From contig JAQOTE010000015.1 in NCBI GenBank assembly GCA_029945375.1, forward strand, positions 1-64,000: a stretch of 64,000 nucleotides of DNA. Reading direction: 5' to 3'. The notes beneath the pieces are model-generated. The model was not told where the DNA came from. It saw nothing but the letters and a program-made list of their open reading frames with translations, and made no database searches. The first letter of the stretch is position 1, and every line of letters starts with the position of its first letter. Shown here one piece after another: positions 19,270 to 60,793 of this stretch. This stretch comes from Agaricus subrufescens. Lineage: Eukaryota > Basidiomycota > Agaricomycetes > Agaricales > Agaricaceae. The position numbers were made by a program, and so were the translations under genes.

Positions 19270-19384
19270 TGACGAGAGTGGGATTCGAACCCACGCCCCG
19301 AAAGACCAGATTCCAATTGGAATGGAGGGACATCAAATGCCCTAGTCCTTAGTCTGGCGCCTTAGACCACTCGGCCATCTCGCC
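19270..19384 (-). tRNA. tRNA-Leu(AAG) with intron
   Basis: The acceptor stem starts GGCGAGA and pairs with TCTCGTC (one G-U) before discriminator A. The D-arm/A-box is TGGCCGAGTGG, the anticodon stem CCAGA/TCTGG with loop CTAAGG, anticodon AAG, and the B-box GGTTCGAATCC. A long variable arm is present. An intron of about 35 nt follows the anticodon loop. Every base, intron included, matches the copy at 46841-46955. Confidence 0.93.
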
Positions 19385-31939: not shown

Positions 31940-32710
31940 TCTGTCTGACACATGGGTGGCCTCCTCCGATGATTGTCGAGGGCGTCAGAGTCTACAACAA
32001 CAATAGGATTTCAAAATGTAATTATGGATGCTTCAACAAGACCGGTCGACGGTTTAACAATCAATCGGTCTTCCCCTTTTTCTGCTTTAACATCGCTTCG
32101 TCCTCCTTTTGCAACTCGGCATCGATCATTGCTCCACGGGACGGCTTATGGCCGTGGTCCATGGCTGGCTTCAACGGGTCCTTAACCGTTTGTTTACTCT
32201 CTTCTATATGAACTTCACGCTGCTCTTCAGCGCTGAGGTTACGTTCGTCTCTGTTGAGAATTTCAGAGATGAGAAAGAGAAACAGAGGAGGAAAAGCTAC
32301 AAGTGGTGAGTCGGTTCTGGACCGTGTTCTAGACGCTCTTGGCGTTCCATTTCTCCTTTCTTTGGCTTTGTGGTTTTGGGAGGTCTAATGACAAGAAAGT
32401 GAGGGCGAAGGAGAGGTTATAATGTTCTAAGAAGTACCTCTGATCTTGGGCCTCGTAGATGCGTGGTTCACCGACATTAGAATACATGCTTAAGTTGATG
32501 GCAGTGTGGAGGAAGAAATTGGCAGAAGATGCGTTTATTTAACTAACATGCTGATCAATACTGAACACATTATGACATCATGTATGAGTTCAGAGGTCCT
32601 TTGTGGAATGATCGCCCGATGTTATATTATGTGCCTGTTTCTCACAACTTTTTAGTCAGGCAGCTACAGCGGATTCTGATAAAAACATATGAACTAAGCG
32701 CTGGTCCAGA
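31940..32710. other. Gene-free stretch
   Basis: 3' flank of the F-box gene up to tRNA-Gln. Overlapping short ORFs at 31924-32309 have no domains and could be an extra 3' exon, but I cannot support one. Confidence 0.35.
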
Positions 32711-32793
32711 GGCGTTACCAGGGTTCGAACCTGGGTTTCGGGAAATCTATAGTCAATCAAAATCCCGAGTGATAACCACTACACTATAACGCC
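32711..32793 (-). tRNA. tRNA-Gln(TTG) with short intron
   Basis: Acceptor stem GGCGTTA with TAACGCC; D-arm/A-box TAGTGTAGTGGTTATCAC; anticodon stem CGGGA/TCCCG, loop TTTTGA with anticodon TTG; T-arm CCAGGTTCGAACCCTGG. The intron after the anticodon is about 12 nt and 3 nt longer than in the copy at 35327-35406; the mature parts are identical. Confidence 0.92.
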
Positions 32794-35230: not shown

Positions 35231-35326
35231 TAATAAAATCGGGACGACGTTACTGAATTAAAACCTGATGGAGTACACACCTTTTTCTGCTATACGTCTG
35301 GGTTAAAAAGGAGAAAAGGGTTATTA

Positions 35327-35406
35327 GGCGTTACCAGGGTTCGAACCTGGGTTTCGGGAAACTTTGCAATCAAAATCCCGAGTGATAACCACTACACTAT
35401 AACGCC
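35327..35406 (-). tRNA. tRNA-Gln(TTG) with short intron
   Basis: Same mature sequence as the tRNA at 32711-32793: acceptor GGCGTTA/TAACGCC, anticodon TTG, B-box GGTTCGAACCC. The intron is about 9 nt and differs in sequence from the other copy. Confidence 0.92.
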
Positions 35407-35630: not shown

Positions 35631-37100
35631 ATGACCCTCGATCTACCGGGACAAATCTCCAGGCTCCGAAAGAATGAATGGGTCAATCTACAGGGTCTGA
35701 TCGATTGTTCGACTACCCACATTTCCAGCCCTGTACCTCACCTGAGTTGCTCGTCCATTTCACTACTTGGCTGGGGCAGTTACAATACTGTCTACCGACT
35801 GGATTTCACCGATGGTACGCGAGTAGCTGCTAGCGTCTCGAATCACGACGAAGAAGACTTCAATCCGCAGGCAAAACAGTCCGAAATTGCAACGCTGAAA
35901 TTTGTGCGAGAATCAGGACTCTATCCAAATATACCTGTACCCAAGGTACATGGATGGGATGTTACGTTCAACAATCCTGCATGCGCACCATATGTTGTCA
36001 TGGATATTGTTCAAGGGAAAAGTTTACAGGGGCTGCATGGGGAGAATAGTATTCATGGCTTGGATACATTACCCGGTGCACAGCAGCTTTCTATCGTTCG
36101 GACGCTAGCCAAGCTGAAAGCATCTCTTTCCCGGCCTGTACCGTTCGAAAAGATTGGAAGCATTGCAGGTCCGGTTGGAGGAGAAAATCCTGTGGGACCA
36201 CTCATGACACTCACGCAGGGTAGTTTGGGAGGGCCTTTCAAATCCGCGGATGAATTATGGCGTTCTTGTCTAGAACAGGAGATGTTGCATGCCGTTCAAG
36301 AGTGGTGCGATCTCGAAAAGGATCAACTCTCGACGTCGCTGTCGGAGCCAAGCTGCACCCCCCAGACATTTTCAGAGCTATTCCAATTTCTGTCGTCACT
36401 CATTCCGCACTTCAAGATCCCACCAGCATACAATTCCATGGTCCTGCACCATCCCGACCTCGCATTGCGCAACATATTCTTTGATGAGGAATCATTAACA
36501 TCAGATCAACCTAGGATAACCGGTGTCATTGACTGGGGAGGTGCACAAATCCTCCCACTCATGCTTACTGCCCAGTACCCCGAGGATCTCATGACCTCAG
36601 CCGACGATCCGTTTACACGTCCCGATCATCCCGATGAGAATTGGCGTACCGTTCCTACTGATTGGACTTCTATCGGGGATGCTACCCGGTGGCCGCAAGC
36701 TTTCAGGGGCATAGATGAACCAGTCGATTATGCACCGCGCGTTAGGAGTATGGTCCGTCGGTTTTATCTACGTACGCACTTCAGCGCGTGCTACGCAGAA
36801 CAGCTACATCGGCTACACGGAGATACGGATATGTCGCGTGCTACACTTTTCGCCGACGCACCGTACTACTTGAAATTCCATGAAACAATATGCGGTGGAT
36901 GGACGAATTGGGTTGAACACGCGAGTTGGATACGCGAGACATATTGGAGACTCAGGGCAATTGCTGGTCAAAAAACGAACAGGGGTTCGTTGGTCACTGG
37001 GCCAAATGTTTATCGAGGCTCTATTGAGCCTGCGATACTCGACTTACGGATTTTTAATGATACGATCTGCTCTGTGGATGTGGATGGTGACTCGAACTGA
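35631..37100 (+). CDS. Aminoglycoside-phosphotransferase (APH)-family kinase-like protein, intronless
   Basis: Single exon, 489 aa. A kinase-like fold of the APH/choline kinase superfamily; substrate unknown. Motifs: a Gly-rich N-lobe loop LLGWGSYNTVYRLDF, then DGTRVAASVS where ATP-binding members usually have a basic residue. EIATLKFVRE, VPKVHGW and YVVMDIVQGKSL follow. The catalytic loop is VLHHPDLALRNIFFDEE (HxDLxxxN type) and the metal-binding segment ITGVIDWGGAQ. The C-terminus (from about 36791) is duplicated and decayed at 38306-38709. It is the only intact long gene here without introns, which could reflect retroposition or transfer. It lies between AKR fragments. Confidence 0.88.
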   Translation: MTLDLPGQISRLRKNEWVNLQGLIDCSTTHISSPVPHLSCSSISLLGWGSYNTVYRLDFTDGTRVAASVSNHDEEDFNPQAKQSEIATLKFVRESGLYPNIPVPKVHGWDVTFNNPACAPYVVMDIVQGKSLQGLHGENSIHGLDTLPGAQQLSIVRTLAKLKASLSRPVPFEKIGSIAGPVGGENPVGPLMTLTQGSLGGPFKSADELWRSCLEQEMLHAVQEWCDLEKDQLSTSLSEPSCTPQTFSELFQFLSSLIPHFKIPPAYNSMVLHHPDLALRNIFFDEESLTSDQPRITGVIDWGGAQILPLMLTAQYPEDLMTSADDPFTRPDHPDENWRTVPTDWTSIGDATRWPQAFRGIDEPVDYAPRVRSMVRRFYLRTHFSACYAEQLHRLHGDTDMSRATLFADAPYYLKFHETICGGWTNWVEHASWIRETYWRLRAIAGQKTNRGSLVTGPNVYRGSIEPAILDLRIFNDTICSVDVDGDSN

Positions 37101-37795
37101 CATCCACGTTCCATCGACTATCCAAACACAGACTCATACACGACAAGGCCCAAAAGTTAACAACTGCTTTCCTGTACTACTCGATCCTGTTTAGATGTGC
37201 TTTCAATCCCGCTGACTCCTGCACCTTATTCAAGCGCGCCAAGCATCGCTCCAATGATCTTATCCGCCGAATCCCAGGTGCCCGATGTATACGTCACATA
37301 AGCGTCTGTCTTTCCTTTCTTCGCCACAATTGTAATATATTGTGGTGGTTTTCCGGACGTTTCCTGGGATTTTGTTTGGAATGTGATGTTCGTTTGGGAT
37401 TGTGATTTCCCGTCACCATGCCACGGCCTGTACTGCCCCACTCCATACACCTGCTCAACCTTGGCAGTATCAATTTTATCGAGGTACTGTTTGACTTCTT
37501 TCAAGTCTTTCTTAGAGGCGTTGGGCTTAGTCGGATGGAGTGAGTGAACGTTTAGAATTCAACATGAATTGATTTACATTTTTGGTTGCAGACGGTGACA
37601 TGGTAAGAAAGAATCGAACAACCAGCTGCTCTCAGCGCTTTTTATGGGGCATATTTATAGGCCAGACGATGGCTCATGTGTATGATTCCTCAGCATGAGA
37701 TGTGAATTTGATACCCTATTCATCGCACTTGGTGCACGATGCCCCACCTTCTATGCGCCCCCAAATGCCGAGCTTCCGCTAATTAAAAACCCTGC
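36791..37795. repeat. Segmental duplication, copy A
   Basis: Contains the APH 3' end, small gene A and its upstream region. It is matched in the same order and orientation by 38306-39652; most stretches are near-identical by eye. Shared promoter landmarks include gccagacgatggctcatgtg and ccaccttctatgcgccccca. Confidence 0.85.
37226..37601 (-). CDS. Small protein of unknown function, paralog A
   Basis: Exons 37601-37578 and 37525-37226; intron 52 bp with donor gtaaat; 107 aa. Exon 1 encodes only MSPSATKN. Exon 2 holds the conserved body: KEVKQYLDKIDTAKVEQVYG, VGQYRPWHGDG, TNITFQTKSQ, YITIVAKKGKTDAYV and a helical end ADKIIGAMLGALE. No signal peptide or membrane segment; charged and soluble-looking. 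I do not recognise the family. Paralog B (38672-39456) shows strong conservation of the body, which supports a real protein. Confidence 0.8.
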
Positions 37796-37854
37796 GCTTA
37801 GTGTAGGTATCTTCCAACCGTCCCTTCCGTCTCTCACTTTGTGTCTTAGTCTAC

Positions 37855-38284
37855 AGAAATGAGGAAAGTGTTGGCGTTGCTATTCGAGAAAATGGATTCC
37901 TCGCTCTGACATCTTCGTCACTACCAAACGGTCAGGCGAATGTTCAAATGGCCATGAATCCTTGAAAATAAGTTTATCAAAGGTAACCTGAAACCTTGTA
38001 CTAGATGTCTATCTTTACATCGAAATACAGCTGGGCCTCAAACACGTTGATATCTTCCTCATACACATCCCTCGGTTAGTTGAAAACAATGTCGAGCATA
38101 TGTGGCGGCAATACGAAGAGGTTCAGCAAGTAGGTCTGACCAGGTATGGCTGCTGTGGCCCGCGAATACACTTTCAAAGTTTTCTGACGTCCTTCTGCAG
38201 AAGCATTGGTGTCAGCAATTTTGATGTGGAGGACTTGGAGCCATTGCTCAAGATTGCACGCTCCAAACCGGTCGTGAACTAGGT
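37855..38284 (+). pseudogene. Decayed aldo-keto reductase, exons 2-4
   Basis: Closely matches AKR exons 2-4 (41277-41707) including introns. Damage is visible: a 1-nt loss after attcgagaaa shifts the frame in exon 2; TKW has become a TKR-type codon (aaacgg); exon 4 ends VVN followed by TAG where the intact gene has CAG. Exon 1 is missing here (a decayed exon 1 sits at 35028), and exons 5-8 are replaced by the APH fragment a few bases later. Confidence 0.88.
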
Positions 38285-38305
38285 ATGGCGTGCGTATGCT
38301 TTCGC

Positions 38306-38709
38306 TCTACGCGGAACAGCTACATCGGCTACATGTGGATACGGATATATCGCGTGCTACACTTTTTGCCGACGCACCATACTACTTGAAATTCCATGAA
38401 ACAATATGCGGTGGATGGACGAATTGGGTTGAACACGCGAGTTGGATACGCGAGACATATTGGAGACTCAGGGCAATTGCTGGTCAAAAAACGAACAGGG
38501 TTTCGTTGGTCACTGGGCCAAATGTTTATCGAGGCTCTATCGAGCCTGCGATACTCGACTTGCGGATTTTTAATGATACGATCTGCCTGTGGATGTGGAT
38601 GGTGACTCGAACTGACATACACGCTCCATCGACTATCCAAACATGGTCCCATACACGACGGGGCCCAACAATCAACAGCTGTTGCCCTGTACTACTCGAT
38701 CCTCTTTGA
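38306..38709 (+). pseudogene. Decayed 3' fragment of the APH-like gene
   Basis: A near-identical copy of 36791-37190, lacking the N-terminal two thirds and the catalytic loop. It starts in the middle of the reading frame (YAEQLHRLH). A 1-nt deletion near the end (ctgcctgtgg for ctgctctgtgg) shifts the C-terminus. It is joined on its left to the AKR pseudogene. Confidence 0.88.
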
Positions 38710-39456
38710 ATGTACTTTCGATCTTGCCGACCCCAGCACGTTGTTCAAACACACCAAGCATCGCTTCAATGATCTCATCCGCCGAATTCCAGGCGTCCGA
38801 TGTGTGCGTCACATAGGCGTCCGTCTTTCCTTTCTTCGCCACAATTGTAATATATTGTGGTGGTTTTCCGGACGTCTTCTGGGATTTAGTTTGGAATGTG
38901 ATGTTCGTTCGGGATTGTGATTTCCCGTCACCATGCCACGGCCTGTACTGCCCTATTCCATACACTTGTTCGATTTTGGTAGTACGAATGTTATCGAGGT
39001 ACTGTTTGACTTCTTTCAAGTCTTTCCTAGAGGCTTTGGGCTTAGTCGGATAAAGTGAGTGACCGTTTGGAATTCAACATCAATAAACTCACATTTTTTG
39101 TTACAGACGCGGTGGTTGGGTTGGGCTTGGTCATGCAGAGTAAGTAAACGACACCAGTCTTGACAGCAGTGAACTCACATTTTCGGTTACAGATGCGGTA
39201 GGCGGGATGGACTTATTAGAATAGCGTAAGTCGCCGAGATCTGATAACATTATTGAACTGACGCTTTCAGTAACAGACACGGCAGTAGGGTCGGGCTTGT
39301 TCGGGCTGAGTAAGTGGTTAGGGTTAAATCCAACATCACTGAACTCACATTTTTGGATACAGATACAGTGGCTGGATGCGTCGCAATTTTGGGTACAGAC
39401 ACAGTGGCTGGATGCATCACAATTTTGGGTACAGATACGGTGGTTGGGTGCGACAT
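38672..39456 (-). CDS. Small protein of unknown function, paralog B, with tandem microexons
   Basis: Exons 39456-39349 (108 nt), 39295-39263 (33), 39211-39179 (33), 39125-39093 (33) and 39040-38672; 191 aa; every intron is phase 0 and 51-53 bp. Exon 1 encodes three 10-12-residue repeats (HPTTVSVPKIVM, HPATVSVPKIAT, HPATVSVSKN). Exons 2-4 each encode one 11-residue unit: PDPTAVSVTES, SIPPTASVTEN, PNPTTASVTKN. Exon 5 holds the body shared with paralog A (QYLDNIRTTKIEQVYG, YRPWHGDGKSQS, YITIVAKKGKTDAYV). The stop codon of paralog A (TAA, 37226-37228) is CAA here, so the protein runs 23 residues further. Function unknown. Some microexons could be skipped without breaking the frame. Confidence 0.75.
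39041..39456 (-). repeat. Tandem exon-plus-intron units
   Basis: Units of about 84-87 bp combine a 33-nt exon and an intron. Introns begin gtgagttca/gtcagttca and end in a (c/t)aag acceptor. Sequence similarity between the introns shows they arose by duplication. The 5' exon additionally holds three 36-bp repeats without introns. Confidence 0.8.
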
Positions 39457-39755
39457 GGTAAGAAAGAATCGAACAACCAGCTGCTGTCGGCGTTTCTTTA
39501 TGACGGCATATTTATAGGCCAGACGATGGCTCATGTGCATGATTCCTGGGCATGATTCCTGAGCATGAGATGTGAATTTGATACCCTATCGCACTTAGTG
39601 CACGGTACCCCACCTTCTATGCGCCCCCAAACACCGAGCTTCTGCTAATTAAAAGCTCAGCGAAGTTTAATTGATTGAAATCTCCGGCTTCTTTCCTCCC
39701 ACTTTCGTTCATACCTGTGCTTACAACAAGAATTGTACCCTCTGGTAAGATCAAA

Positions 39756-40557
39756 ATGGGAATTGATGAAGACACACATTATGAACGAGGGATATGCTAC
39801 TTGTGTCAACGCGAGATATTCGAAGTCCCGTGAGTGATTTTTCGTGTTCCATCCTACTCACCCTCTTACTTCGAGGTTAGAGATACCACAACAGCTTTAT
39901 AATGAGATCGTTCACTGATATCGGCTCTTTTTATGCTCGATTTTCTCCCTCTCGGAGGTGATCGTTTTCTGGATTAATATCATTCCAATCACATGGTACT
40001 CAACCTGAAATAGGCTGAGGATTTATCGAGGCACGAGGAGAGACGTAGTAGGAGTCGGGATCATCCTTGAATCTACGATCATCTTGTTAGGTCCCACTTA
40101 CGGCTTTGTGGTGGTGTCCAACACTCTATGAACTACTCATCAAAATATCCACAGGTAAAACCCCGGAGTACCTTAGGCTTCTGAATGCGGACTATGCTGC
40201 AGAGTTTCAAAAGAAAATGCAATTGCAGTAATCTATGCCAGCTTTACTTGAGCTGACATACGATTGTGTCTAGTCAATACTCACTCAGCTTGGCGAATGA
40301 TCACTGTTTTATGGAATCAGGTGTGGAGCAGGGTTCAGCCTGGTTTCAATCAATTTCAAGTGCATTGGTTCGGGAGCCCACATGGATTGAGGAAGTGCAG
40401 GTGAATGTATGGACATGCTCTGTCGTGAGTTTGGTTTGCACTAATGGAACAGGCGCATCTCTTGGAAATGGTACGTAATAAATTCTCTATGTGCTTGATG
40501 GGTGCCAATGTCGGTGTTTAGTTATCTGAGGTACAGCAGTATGATTCAACGAGTTAG
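39756..40557 (+). CDS. Possible small spliced gene, function unknown, one intron unresolved
   Basis: Exon 1, 39756-39829, encodes MGIDEDTHYERGICYLCQRE (a C-x2-C pair). A later chain of exons fits in phase: 40155-40227 (KTPEYLRLLNADYAAEFQKK), 40274-40400 (SLANDHCFMESGVEQG, LVREPTWIEEVQ), 40453-40470 (18 nt) and 40522-40557 ending EVQQYDSTS. Exon 1 ends in phase 2 but 40155 needs phase 1, so an exon is missing or a boundary is wrong. No family recognised. Confidence 0.4.
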
Positions 40558-41078
40558 ATCAATCCAGGCAGAAGCTTTTTGGTCGTACGTCCCATTGTTC
40601 TTCCGAGAAGTTCATGCAATGAACCGTAGATTCAAGGCTGTGAAGTCGCCCAGTATCAGTCTTTGTGGCTATGTTCCGATCTGTTCAAGAGTGTCTACAT
40701 GTGCATGATACAGGACGACTGTTGGTTCCAGCTGAAAAATAGAAAGGAAGATACAGAAGAAGTGGTGTGATGTAAATCCTCGGTCCATCACAACAACAGG
40801 ATATTCAAAAATCTGTTTCTCTTTGTGCTGCACGATTCTAAAGCCATTGTATGTAGCCTTTGCACTCGTCAAATATATCCTATATGAGGAGTAAAAGTGC
40901 TTGCCTTGGGGAATGTAACTCTCATCTGCATCTACATGGTTTGATTTATCCTCGCGGGGAGCGTTCCAAAGCTCTAGAGACTACCGGTTCCGTGTTCGCG
41001 GGAAAAACGCCACCTCGAGCTAATAATAGGTAATTAGTGCCTCGAATCCTTATATCATCACTCCCACCACCACACAGA

Positions 41079-42329
41079 ATGCCATTCACCGATTTCAAGC
41101 TTAAAGATGGCTATTCGATTCCCGCCATTGCCTTTGGCTCCGGAAGCGTCAATAAAGGGCATGACATCCACGAGTACGTGGAGAATGCCCTGGAACACGG
41201 CTTCTCTCACATTGACACCGCTCAGTGTAAATGTCTCCCGATTGTCCCGTCCGTCTCTCACTTTGTGTCTTAGTCTATAGGAATGAGGAGAGTGTTGGCG
41301 TAGCTATTCGAGAAAGTGGACTCCCTCGCTCTGACATCTTCGTCACTACCAAATGGTCAGGCGAATGTTCAAATGTCCGCAAATCCTTGGAAATAAGTTT
41401 ATCAAAGGTAACCTGAAACCTTGTACTAGGTGTCTATCTTCACATAGAAACACAGCTTGGCCTCAAATACGTTGATCTCTTCCTCATACATATGCCTCGG
41501 TTAGTTGAAAACAACGTTGAACATGTGTGGCGGCAATTCGAAGAGGTTCAGCAAGTAGGCCTGACCAGGTATGGCTGCTGCGGCCAGCAAACGCATTCTC
41601 AAAGTCCTCTGACGTCCTCCTGCAGAAGCATTGGTGTCAGCAATTTTGATGTGGAGGACTTGGAGCCATTGCTCAAGATTGCACGCTCCAAACCAGTCGT
41701 AAACCAGGTATGGCGGGCGTAGGCTTTTGCTCGTATCTCGCAGACTCTCTTGCTAGATTCAATTCCACCCTTACAATTGGAAGCAAAACGAGAGGCTTCT
41801 TGAATACCATGCCAAGCATGGTATCGTCACTGAAGGGTATAGTAGTTTGGTGTATGTTTTTCTAGTCCACTTTCCAGTTCCATGGACTAACTCACTTTCA
41901 GTCCTATCACCCGCTGCCCCGGCGGACCAGTTGACCCTGTGCTGGCGCGGATTGCCAAGCGTCTCAAAGCTACGCCTACACAAGTGATATTTTTGTGGGT
42001 GAAGGCAAAGAAGGTGGTAATTGTTACGTATGTTACTCTGCTGTTGTAAAGCTCCGATACCTGACTTAGAAGACGACAGGACAACCTCAAAGGTGGAACG
42101 ACTTGATGAGTACCTTGCGGTCGGCGATCTACGTAAGTGAAGTTTACCTTCGAATACGACAGAAGTTCTGATATAAAGATAAGCGAACCTTACACCAGAA
42201 GAAGTGGCAGCTATTGACGAGGCCGGTAGTGTGGAGCCATCCTTCGCAATCCAAGCCTTAAATGGCTGGTGGCGTGGTTTGCTCCTACTTTCTATTGTGT
42301 TGACGCTCTATTTCTTTGTTACTTGGTAG
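41079..42329 (+). CDS. Aldo-keto reductase with C-terminal membrane segment
   Basis: NAD(P)H-dependent carbonyl reductase family. Exons 41079-41226, 41274-41407, 41456-41568, 41626-41707, 41757-41851, 41902-42027, 42080-42132 and 42199-42329; introns 47-66 bp; 293 aa. The catalytic tetrad is intact: Asp46 and Tyr51 in HIDTAQFYRNEE, Lys76 in TTKW, His106 in LIHMP. Also visible are [31 protein letters not shown], and the cofactor part [12 protein letters not shown]. After EAG the protein ends with a hydrophobic stretch ([18 protein letters not shown]), so it may be tail-anchored in a membrane, which is unusual for AKRs. Two decayed relatives lie at 35028 and 37855. Substrate unknown. Confidence 0.9.
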
Positions 42330-46840: not shown

Positions 46841-46955
46841 GGCGAGATGGCCGAGTGGTCTAAGGCGCCAGACTAAGGACTAGGGCATTTGATGTCCCTC
46901 CATTCCAATTGGAATCTGGTCTTTCGGGGCGTGGGTTCGAATCCCACTCTCGTCA
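46841..46955 (+). tRNA. tRNA-Leu(AAG) with intron
   Basis: Identical over 115 bases, including the intron of about 35 nt, to the gene at 19270-19384 on the other strand. The flanks share only short T-rich segments. Confidence 0.93.
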
Positions 46956-57025: not shown

Positions 57026-60000
57026 TCAAGCTGAAGCGAGTCCCAATAAACCAGCAAAATGTTTCACCTTCGGGGATGGAAGCGCCTTAGTGAATATGTC
57101 CACTATCATGTTATTGGTAGGGCAGTAGATGAGTTGGATTTGACCATCTTCTATGATCCATTGGATGAAGTGATAGTGTATGTTGATGTGTTTAGTGCGA
57201 GGGTGGTATTGGTGGTCTGATGTGAGTGCAATCACAGACTGATTGTCAGAGAATAAAGTGGTAGTGTTGAGTTTGGTGGCGGAAACCTGCGAGATAAATG
57301 AACAAAGCCACAAGGCTTCTTTAGATGCATGGACAGTGCCAACATACTTGGATTTGGTGGTGGACAGCATTACCAGCTCTTGCTTTTTGGTGCTCCAGGA
57401 AACAGCACCCCTGTTTATCATGAATGCATAGCTGGATGTGGATTGACGGTCCTCTGCCATGCTTCTGTCTGCATCAGTGAAGCCCTCGAGCTTATCGCCT
57501 AATCTGCCATAGGTGAGGCAATGGTCATGGCTGCCTTTAAGATATCAGAAGACACGTTTTACTGCTTCCCAATGTGCCTCCCCGGGTGCCTTGGTGAAGC
57601 ATGATAAGACCTGTACAGCATATGCGATATCCGGTCACGTTCCCAATGCAGCATACATCAATTTCCCCACCGCTTCTTGGTAAGGAACCTTGGCCATGCG
57701 GGCAATTTCAGTGGTAGACTTAGGTGAATGTTTGGATGTGAGTCGAATGGAGGGGTCCATGGGTATGCTGAGCAGCTTTGAATCTTTGAGCCCAAAAAGT
57801 TGAATAGAGGCATCAATGTAGGATTTATGTGAGAGTGAAAGTGTACCCTTAGCCCAATCTCGCTTTATTTCAATTCCCAGTAGCCAATGGATTTCACTGA
57901 GATCTGTTATCTCAACATGCTCCTCTTTTTACCCAGTCAATCAACTCCATTGTAGTCAAAACAATGGTACAGTTGTCAACGTGCACCAATATGATGATAA
58001 GGTCTGAGGCCTTGAATTTGTAGAATACTGCATTGTCGACATCGCATCACAAAAACCCTAAGTTGTCAATTAATATCTCACACAACTTTTGATACCATCG
58101 GCAGCCTGATTGCTTTAGGCCATACAGTGTCTTTACTAATCGACATACTCGATTTGGATGGGCAGGGTCGTGGAATCCAAGGGGTTGTTTCATGTAAATG
58201 ATTTTGTTCTTGGCAAGTTTTCCATTTAGGTAAGCCCCTTTTATGTCAATCTGATGGATTTCTAGATTTCTCATGGCTGCAATGGCAAGTACAGTCCAGA
58301 TTGAGGGAAGGTGTGCAACTGGCGCATATGTGTTGAAATAGTTGACACCGGGCACATGCAAAAAGCCTTGTGCCACTAGTTGAGCTTTGTAGTGGACAAC
58401 ATTTCTGGCCACATCCTTCTTTGCCTTGAACACCCATTTGCAGCCTATGACATTTACCCCTTTGGGTGCTTCTGTGAGTTCCCACATACCCGCTCCCTTC
58501 AAAGTTGATAATTCTTCTTCAATTGCCCCTTTCCACAACGACCAATTGGATCTCCTCATCACATCCTTCAAACTGGTAGATTCTAATGCCTCCATTTCTT
58601 CCACTTCTGATGTGAATGCCCAGACCTCTTCCTATTCAGTTTCTTTGGCAAGCATCATGGCTCTCCCTTCTAGGATATCCTTCATTTTCTGGCTTGGTGC
58701 TTGAATGCGTTGGGGGCAATCAGGGATGGCAATTGATGATAGGTGAAATTTGGGTTTCATGTCTTCAGGTTTCACATCCAGAGGACAGTCTGGTGTGGGA
58801 TTGGTTTTGGTGGGGGATGGTTCTGATTTTCTGGGGTTGACTTTTGGGTCTGAGGTAGGTTCCTTGTCACTGTCAGTCTTGTCAATTGGAAATGATGTGT
58901 CTTGCTCCCCCTCAAGACTGGAGTGACCATTTTTGATAAAACAAAAGTTCCGTTCTACCTTGACACTGCCAGAGTTGATGAACCAGATGCGTGAGCCATT
59001 ACTCTCAGCATCATATCCTAGCCATCGGCCCTTCTCCACTCGACCACCCAACTTGTCCCCTTTGGGATTGTGCACCCAAACTTCTGTTCCCCACTTGTGC
59101 AAGCTGTTTAAATTCGGTTTCCTTCCATACACAACCTCATATGGTGTCTTTCCCTCCACAGCCTTGGTCCCAGTTCAATTCATTAACCATACAACATGCG
59201 AGACAGCATCGGCCCACAAGTACTTGGGCAAATGTTTGGTGGCATGGAAGATAGCGCAGCTGCATTCAACAATAGTTCTGTTGCATCGCTCTGCCACACC
59301 ATTATGTTGAGGGGTGTTGTGTACAGTAAGTTTGGCTTCTGTTCCTTGAGTCTTCAGGTGCTGTTTGAATTCGGCAGATGTATATTCCCCTCCTTGATTG
59401 GAATGAAGTGTTTTGATACAGGCATGCAGCTGGGTCTCACACCAGCTTTCAAAGTTTCTGTACGCCTGGAACACATCCAGTTTCTTTTTGAGGAAGGAGA
59501 TGTGAGTCCACTGAGAGTGATCATTGGTGAACATGACATAGTAACACCGACCTTTTCTTGTAGCAACTTTTGCAGGTCCCCAGACATCAGAATGAATTTC
59601 CTGCCCAAACTCTTTGGCGTGTTCACTGTTTCATTCCTTGGCAATTGGAAGACGCGTGGCCTTCGCAAAGGCACACAATTCACAGAAGAGGTTGACATCT
59701 GTTTCCCTTCAAGTTTGAGGCCAGTCACCATACCATTGTTTATAAGTTTGTGAGTGGCTGCAGGCGCAATGTGTCCAAGACAACAGTGTAGCATATCCAG
59801 GGTGAGTACATCACCCACTGCATTCACTTCTCCCACATTTTCATGTATCAGTTTGTACAGGCCATTCTTGTTTCTTGGTATCTCTGCCACACGTGTTGCA
59901 TCTTTATCTCGGATGATGCATTTCCCATTTGAAAAGGTAGTGACAAATCCTGCCTCATCGAGTCATCCAACAGATACAAGTGTGTAGCCAACGTCGGGTA

Positions 60001-60793
60001 CATACAAGACTTCAGTCAGTCTCAGCTGTGATGTACTAATGCCATTTGGTAGGTCAAGAATGACCTCCCCTTTGCCTAGTGTGCAGAATGTTTCTTTGTT
60101 CACAGCTCGGAGTGGATGGGGTGAGATATTTTCAAAGGTGACAAAGGCATCTTGGTAGGGAGTAATGTGTCTGGAGGCTCCTGAGTCAAAAAGTTCGATA
60201 TGCACATTTGAGGTGGGTCCATCCTGAACATGTGTTATATGGTCTTCGGCTTCAACAATTGTTGCATAGGCCTCTACCGACTCCCCCTCAAACTCGTGAT
60301 CTTTGCTCAAGAACTCCTCTAGTTCAGCAACCTCCATATTTACTAATCCAGGGATTTCCTCTGCAGTGAAAGCAGCATTGTCATCATTGGTGGCATTTGC
60401 ACTTGCCTGTGTTTTATCATTTCTGGTAGACTTCTCATCCTCCTTCTTTTTAGGACAGTCCCTTTTTAGGTGGGGGCCTCCACACCTCCAACACGGTCCA
60501 ACATTCCCCTTTTTCTTCTTCCCCTTATCTTTGGGTTCAAAGGCCATAGCATCATCTCCCCCATCACCATCCTTCTTTTGTCCCTTCGAGCATGAAGGCT
60601 GTGTTTGATCCCATTCATCACTTATAATAACAATAAGCAGGTCTGGATCAATGGTGTCGTTACAAAGGGTTGCGGCTGTTAATTGTCTAGAGGCAAAACC
60701 GGTGATGGAATACAGTAAGGATTGTATGATTGTGCTGCAGTAGTCATTGTTGTTGATGGATACACCCATAGCATTGAGTTCAGCATGCTTCAA
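57026..60793 (-). pseudogene. Copia pol remnants
   Basis: Segments in different frames. 60793-59963: CCHC knuckle (CWRCGGPHLKRDC) and protease (FDSGASRHITP). 59890-59175: integrase zinc-binding (CLGHIAPAATHKLI) and core parts (HNTPQHNGVAERCNRTIVE). 59159-58632: integrase C-terminal region (TPYEVVYGRKPNL). 58604-58047: reverse transcriptase (QIDIKGAYLNGKL, CRLVKTLYGLKQS). 57460-57026: RNase H (STTKSKYVGTVHASKEALWL, HINIHYHFIQ). The RT active-site segment near 57985 reads VHVDN rather than the usual VDD pattern. Confidence 0.9.

Follow-up and report, generated by a model that had tools for sequence, protein, structure and literature searches.

Short exons that can be skipped without a frameshift are known from schistosomes. 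According to the available parts of the published accounts, schistosome micro-exon genes (MEGs) contain numerous short, symmetric exons that can be skipped in frame, most of them with a length divisible by three, and these microexons make up 75-80% of the coding sequence. Davis et al. (1988) reportedly described tandemly repeated exons encoding 81-base repeats in S. mansoni.

We identified a comparable array of three 33-nt exons in the window (the whole 64,000-nt stretch of Agaricus subrufescens DNA analysed here). In our best explanation, which we consider rather probable as a whole, they belong to a spliced gene (gene B) for a small conserved Agaricomycete protein. The initial annotation knew of no described gene with this layout. 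However, schistosome MEGs and the 81-base repeated exons are of the same kind as far as the available texts describe them. Thus, the kind of layout is already known, and gene B is a fungal example. A literature search by title and start of abstract (a weak one, as subscription papers were mostly missing) did not return a tandem microexon array from a fungus.

Gene B and its splice signals

Gene B is encoded on the minus strand (39456-38672) and has five exons (108 nt, three of 33 nt, and 369 nt) separated by four introns (Table 1). By conceptual translation, the joined frame encodes 191 aa and begins with MSHPTTVSVPK; a hydrophobic stretch is absent by eye. The three microexons are symmetric (phase 0), shorter than 36 bp, and account for 99 of the 576 nt of coding sequence, stop included. 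The coordinates, exon peptides, 33-nt lengths, phase 0, introns of 51-53 nt and AAG acceptors are all as described in the initial annotation.

Table 1. Features of gene B, paralog A and the duplicated segment (window coordinates)
Feature	Position	Strand	Description
Gene B exon 1	39349..39456	-	108 nt, 36 aa; contains three intronless 36-bp unit copies
Gene B intron 1	39296..39348	-	53 nt, phase 0, GTGAGT...AAG
Gene B microexon 1	39263..39295	-	33 nt, PDPTAVSVTES
Gene B intron 2	39212..39262	-	51 nt, phase 0, GTCAGT...AAG; if retained, frame kept, +17 aa
Gene B microexon 2	39179..39211	-	33 nt, SIPPTASVTEN
Gene B intron 3	39126..39178	-	53 nt, phase 0, GTGAGT...AAG
Gene B microexon 3	39093..39125	-	33 nt, PNPTTASVTKN
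Gene B intron 4	39041..39092	-	52 nt, phase 0; counterpart of paralog A intron, 43/52 identical
Gene B last exon	38672..39040	-	conserved body, 122 aa + stop
TATA-box-like element TATAAATA	39509..39516	-	present upstream of A too; recognised by eye
Paralog A exon 1	37578..37601	-	24 nt, MSPSATKN
Paralog A intron	37526..37577	-	52 nt, GTAAAT...AAG
Paralog A body	37226..37525	-	99 aa + stop; TAA at 37226-37228
APH (phosphotransferase) gene 3'-end copy	38307..38709	+	left by the segmental duplication behind A and B
AKR-like (aldo/keto-reductase-like) gene fragment	37795..38307	+	other end of the same segmental duplication

The first Met of the gene B body is residue 94, and neither B nor its neighbouring paralog A has an ATG in the interval from the last upstream stop to the body. 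As the body is without a start Met of its own, an upstream exon must be spliced on, and we infer from the sequence that the gene B introns are removed. All four have a GTNAGT donor and an AAG acceptor, with a branch-like CTYAC motif at a constant distance; in these and in the paralog A intron, the A of CTYAC is 15 nt from the 3' splice site. The paralog A intron has a GTAAAT donor, with the remaining signals as in gene B. The introns had been described as mutually similar, with gtgagttca starts. The similarity holds (z 2.3 to 5.4 over shuffled sequence for the six pairs of B introns trimmed of their splice sites), but the donors are not uniform, reading in order GTGAGTTCA, GTCAGTTCA, GTGAGTTCA and GTGAGTTTA.

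As judged from the four aligned B introns, the splice signals are conserved while the remaining intron sequence has drifted: 4 of 17 splice-signal columns vary, compared with 29 of 36 others (Fisher p 1.4e-4, with the signal columns picked after the alignment had been inspected). Under neutral drift at the observed divergence, the chance that the four 33-nt exons (microexons 1 to 3 plus the end of exon 1) all stay free of stops and that every one of the four GT and four AG survives is P 0.0009. Absence of stops taken alone is not unusual (0.46). The numbers of variable columns at the three codon positions among the units (6, 3 and 9 of 11 each) are a trend only.

AAG acceptors are usually rarer than CAG or TAG. 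Of the introns of the AKR-like gene nearby, five were delimited by hand; they are 49-57 nt in length and one has an AAG acceptor (two further introns in the 5' part were not cleanly placeable and were omitted from this count). Thus, neither the size nor the acceptor of the array introns is odd locally.

A second contig of the same assembly (C8) matches window positions 1-63993 at 99.4% identity in inverse orientation, and the two contigs are most likely, from this match, two haplotypes of one region. The 460 bp at 39041-39500 are 100% identical on C8, and there are no differences at all between 38566 and 40332. Comparison of the two alleles was uninformative as a test of selection, as many other stretches are likewise without differences. 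Elsewhere in the window, ORFs at 57026-60793 (minus strand) resemble a broken Ty1/copia-type retrotransposon (recognised by eye). Two 115-nt tRNA genes are present in opposite orientation (19270-19384, minus; 46841-46955, plus; 98% identical, 124 nt, via the C8 copy). A second similar tRNA pair is found at 32710-32793 and 35326-35406 (95%).

The conserved protein body

Gene B has the conserved body (WHGDGKSQS...FQTKS, about 100 aa) of a family for which we identified 39 homologs (P0001-P0039) in two overlapping search sets. The first search retained 10 of 108 candidates at E ≤ 1; a profile search retained 38 of 3397 at E ≤ 0.01, with a profile of the homologs from the first search minus P0008 (9 of 10). 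The named sources are all Agaricomycetes (Leucoagaricus gongylophorus, Agaricus bisporus, Clathrus columnatus, several Suillus, and Termitomyces), with lineages confirmed for L. gongylophorus (listed as Leucocoprinus) and C. columnatus. By sequence similarity, the body is a member of an uncharacterised Agaricomycete protein family. Both the repeated unit and the body had been suggested as targets for searches in other agaricomycetes. The body was recovered, but the unit array was not: with the read-through N-terminal ORF as query, none of nine candidates from other genomes had a match at E ≤ 1.

Pfam gave no match to the B body and one match below the cut-off to the A body (Copine, E 0.044). 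A scan of 38 family sequences gave scattered weak matches, the best being DUF1779 (E 0.0052, 4 members). A PDB sequence search with the body returned no matches at E ≤ 10, and 54 pattern matches in viral contigs included no relatives. The structure model of the body is alpha-beta-beta-beta-alpha (mean pLDDT 79.4). A fold search with the model gave no significant matches. We considered, and do not claim, a dsRBD-like order of elements. The structure alignment comprises A, B and all homologs but three (36 of 39); P0008, P0011 and P0037, with long or broken models, were omitted.

The B body retains the residues that are invariant across 12 aligned sequences. Its final 23 aa extend beyond the position of the paralog A stop, and P0001, from a different source, has a C-terminal tail lengthened in much the same way. 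In P0011 (Suillus paluster), MSAHVD is preceded, by eye, by a second, partial copy of the body start; this duplication is separate from the array and close to the same 5' end. The distant homolog P0032 (Termitomyces) has a hydrophobic, signal-peptide-like start, also recognised by eye.

Paralog A and the origin of the repeated unit

Paralog A is 1.5 kb from gene B, and its frame ends earlier. Its short exon, which the initial annotation placed at the position of the internal microexons, exists; however, it is the first coding exon and carries the ATG. A segmental duplication at 36791-41732 gave A and B and left the APH 3'-end copy and the fragment of what we take, by eye, to be an aldo/keto-reductase-like gene. 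A fuller copy of the latter is found near 41079-42329, and the A copy lacks about 1.5 kb of the interval from promoter to AKR (39662-41219). Three A/B flanks differ by 6, 7 and 10%, and the stretch of A after its stop differs from the B tail by 23% (identity 0.773, 66 nt), above the other flanks. The dN/dS ratio of A versus B is about 0.46 (dN 0.084, dS 0.182), which, for this one pair of sequences, is weak constraint.

The exon plus intron units of the gene B array are spaced at 84-86 bp (repeat finder). This spacing and the likeness of the trimmed introns beyond shuffled sequence bear out the earlier proposal that whole exon plus intron units were duplicated. For trimmed intron 4 and the paralog A intron, z is 10.9 over shuffled sequence. 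The three intronless 36-bp copies reported in exon 1 were also recovered (TRF, 39345-39452, 3.0 copies, 84% matches). Copies in exon 1 are identical to one another at 25-27 of 30 positions and the microexons at 19-23 of 30. As the most alike, the exon-1 copies are probably, on sequence identity, the youngest of the units. That the GTG/GCG codon between them is left over from a lost intron is only a guess. We also considered CCCAAC as the exact point of recombination, but too few letters are common at the joint, and this reading was dropped.

Homologs of the body point to the source of the unit. A start of the form M[ST]xx[VI]N is present in 8 of the 39, in front of the body or, in P0004, of a stretch that resembles an intron. 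Five others carry the motif or a variant internally and 26 lack it, many of the latter with a predicted start inside the body; by the pattern used, none has two or more such units. P0004 has MSVTIN, an intron-like stretch that is, in our reading, read through in frame, and then the body. P0002 (Leucoagaricus gongylophorus) has an internal MSVTVN, and its PTTMSVTVN is identical at 7 of 9 positions to PTTASVTKN of the last B unit; a match of at least 7 of 9 is expected by chance at about 1e-5 (composition-matched random 35-mers). Gene B has the MSxxVN motif within its units, minus the Met. From the short first exons and the likeness to P0002, the repeated unit is most simply read as the ancestral first exon with some leader codons and intron 1, the ATG having been lost from each copy. 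The P0002 gene model start, MHMSRRLAYKYA, matches the translated TATA-box region upstream of gene B, MHMSHRLAYKYA. Thus, the promoter appears to be conserved, and the P0002 model probably, to go by this match, takes it for coding sequence.

The array probably arose as follows. In the ancestral gene, a very short first exon (about MSVTVN) would have been followed by a phase-0 intron of about 52 nt and then by the body exon. A segment of about 85 bp (leader end, first exon and intron 1) would then have been duplicated in tandem, a new upstream ATG would have taken over, and the internal ATGs would have been lost. Each spliced copy would contribute 11 codons, although units of 84-86 bp are mostly not divisible by three; with the intron removed from each copy, splicing would shield the reading frame from growth of the repeat. 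An intronless 36-bp version would have multiplied within exon 1. The single unit of paralog A may mean that others were lost there, or were never present.

The array likely predates the A/B duplication, with units lost from A; the introns favour this order and the exons leave it undecided. At non-signal intron positions the B units differ by 51% on average, and intron 4 differs from the A intron at 7 of 35; in 0.9% (0.009) of the bootstrap samples, intron 4 was no closer to A than to at least one B unit. Set beside the 6-10% divergence of the flanks, these values suggest the older age of the array. The argument is weakened by the exon distances (A and the last B unit differ at 7 of 24 positions, two B units at 8 of 33), by the identities of intron 4 in pairwise gapped alignment (78% to intron 1, 83% to the A intron) and by the post-stop divergence. 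Gene conversion could also mislead it.

Products of the locus and known systems

The product of gene B is most likely, as predicted from the sequence, a single protein made by constitutive splicing, with a presumably flexible six-repeat tail on the conserved body. Thr, Pro, Val and Ser make up 44 of the 69 residues of this tail. The initial annotation proposed that every microexon can be skipped without a frameshift, and we find that all 8 combinations keep the frame and the stop (158-191 aa). The frame is also kept if intron 2 is retained; retention of intron 1, 3 or 4 leads to an early stop. In-frame skipping follows from duplication of a phase-0 unit, and its use is not thereby shown.

Alternative inclusion of the microexons, to give proteins of 158, 169, 180 or 191 aa as in schistosome MEGs, is in our view rather unlikely. 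It is consistent with the in-frame skips and the tolerated retention of intron 2, with the 33-nt exon length (microexons are usually up to 36 bp in the available descriptions) and with closely similar splice signals that make donors and acceptors interchangeable. However, keeping of the frame is automatic once a phase-0 unit is duplicated, and constitutive splicing accounts for all observations. The skipped forms would differ in the low-complexity tail only, and 8 of the 39 homologs start with a short exon and are tail-less. It is less likely still that gene B is a decaying duplicate, no longer needed, with a 5' array and longer C-terminus that are neutral debris. Its frame does continue past the A stop, the A/B ratio indicates weak constraint and other gene fragments are found in the neighbourhood. 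Retention of open exons and splice signals above neutral expectation argues against decay, as do the invariant residues kept in the body and the similarly lengthened tail of P0001. Were the array a noncoding, unspliced minisatellite of 85 bp, with the body downstream having a different start that escaped detection, a tandem period mostly not a multiple of three would be accounted for. This we consider very improbable, given that in-frame Met codons are lacking both in the adjoining upstream stop-free stretch and in the body ahead of residue 94, the short first exon at the same place in homologs and the splice signals kept against a drifting background.

A further, quite tentative idea, to which we give about the same low weight as to alternative inclusion, is that the array is a coding minisatellite buffered by splicing. 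A non-triplet repeat would grow and shrink within a coding gene because each copy brings its own intron. Tail length would vary by DNA recombination (grown in B, perhaps shrunk in A, grown without introns in exon 1) and perhaps also by exon skipping, and tails of graded lengths could come from one locus.

The interest of the locus is that exon birth by tandem exon plus intron duplication may be read from sequence in one compact case. Relatives have one short first exon, gene B has an array, paralog A has one unit, and exon 1 holds an offshoot without introns. The array also illustrates how an intron could allow a coding repeat to expand even though its period breaks the frame.

Among fungal systems, the P450 genes of Phanerochaete chrysosporium, likewise an agaricomycete, have microexons of 2-10 aa and introns of 45-55 bp; tandem copies of one exon are not described in the available part of that account. 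The Trichoderma Xlr2 switch microexon is also fungal and is alternatively included, but it is one microexon of an ascomycete transcription factor, with no tandem copies described in the part of the source available. SP7-like effectors of arbuscular mycorrhizal fungi likewise have imperfect repeats adjoining a conserved intron. They have signal peptides and 6-11 repeats, and in the available text the intron lies before the first repeat without being described as part of each. Schistosome MEGs, as described in the accessible portions of the reports, share with gene B several short symmetric exons and the possibility of in-frame skipping. Their introns are about 100 to almost 5000 bp, compared with 51-53 nt in gene B, and their coding sequence is mostly microexons, whereas gene B has three (99 of 576 nt). 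MEG proteins are secreted or exposed, with isoforms seen in transcripts and proteomics; those of gene B are hypothetical. If isoforms exist, gene B would be a fungal counterpart of the schistosome micro-exon genes.
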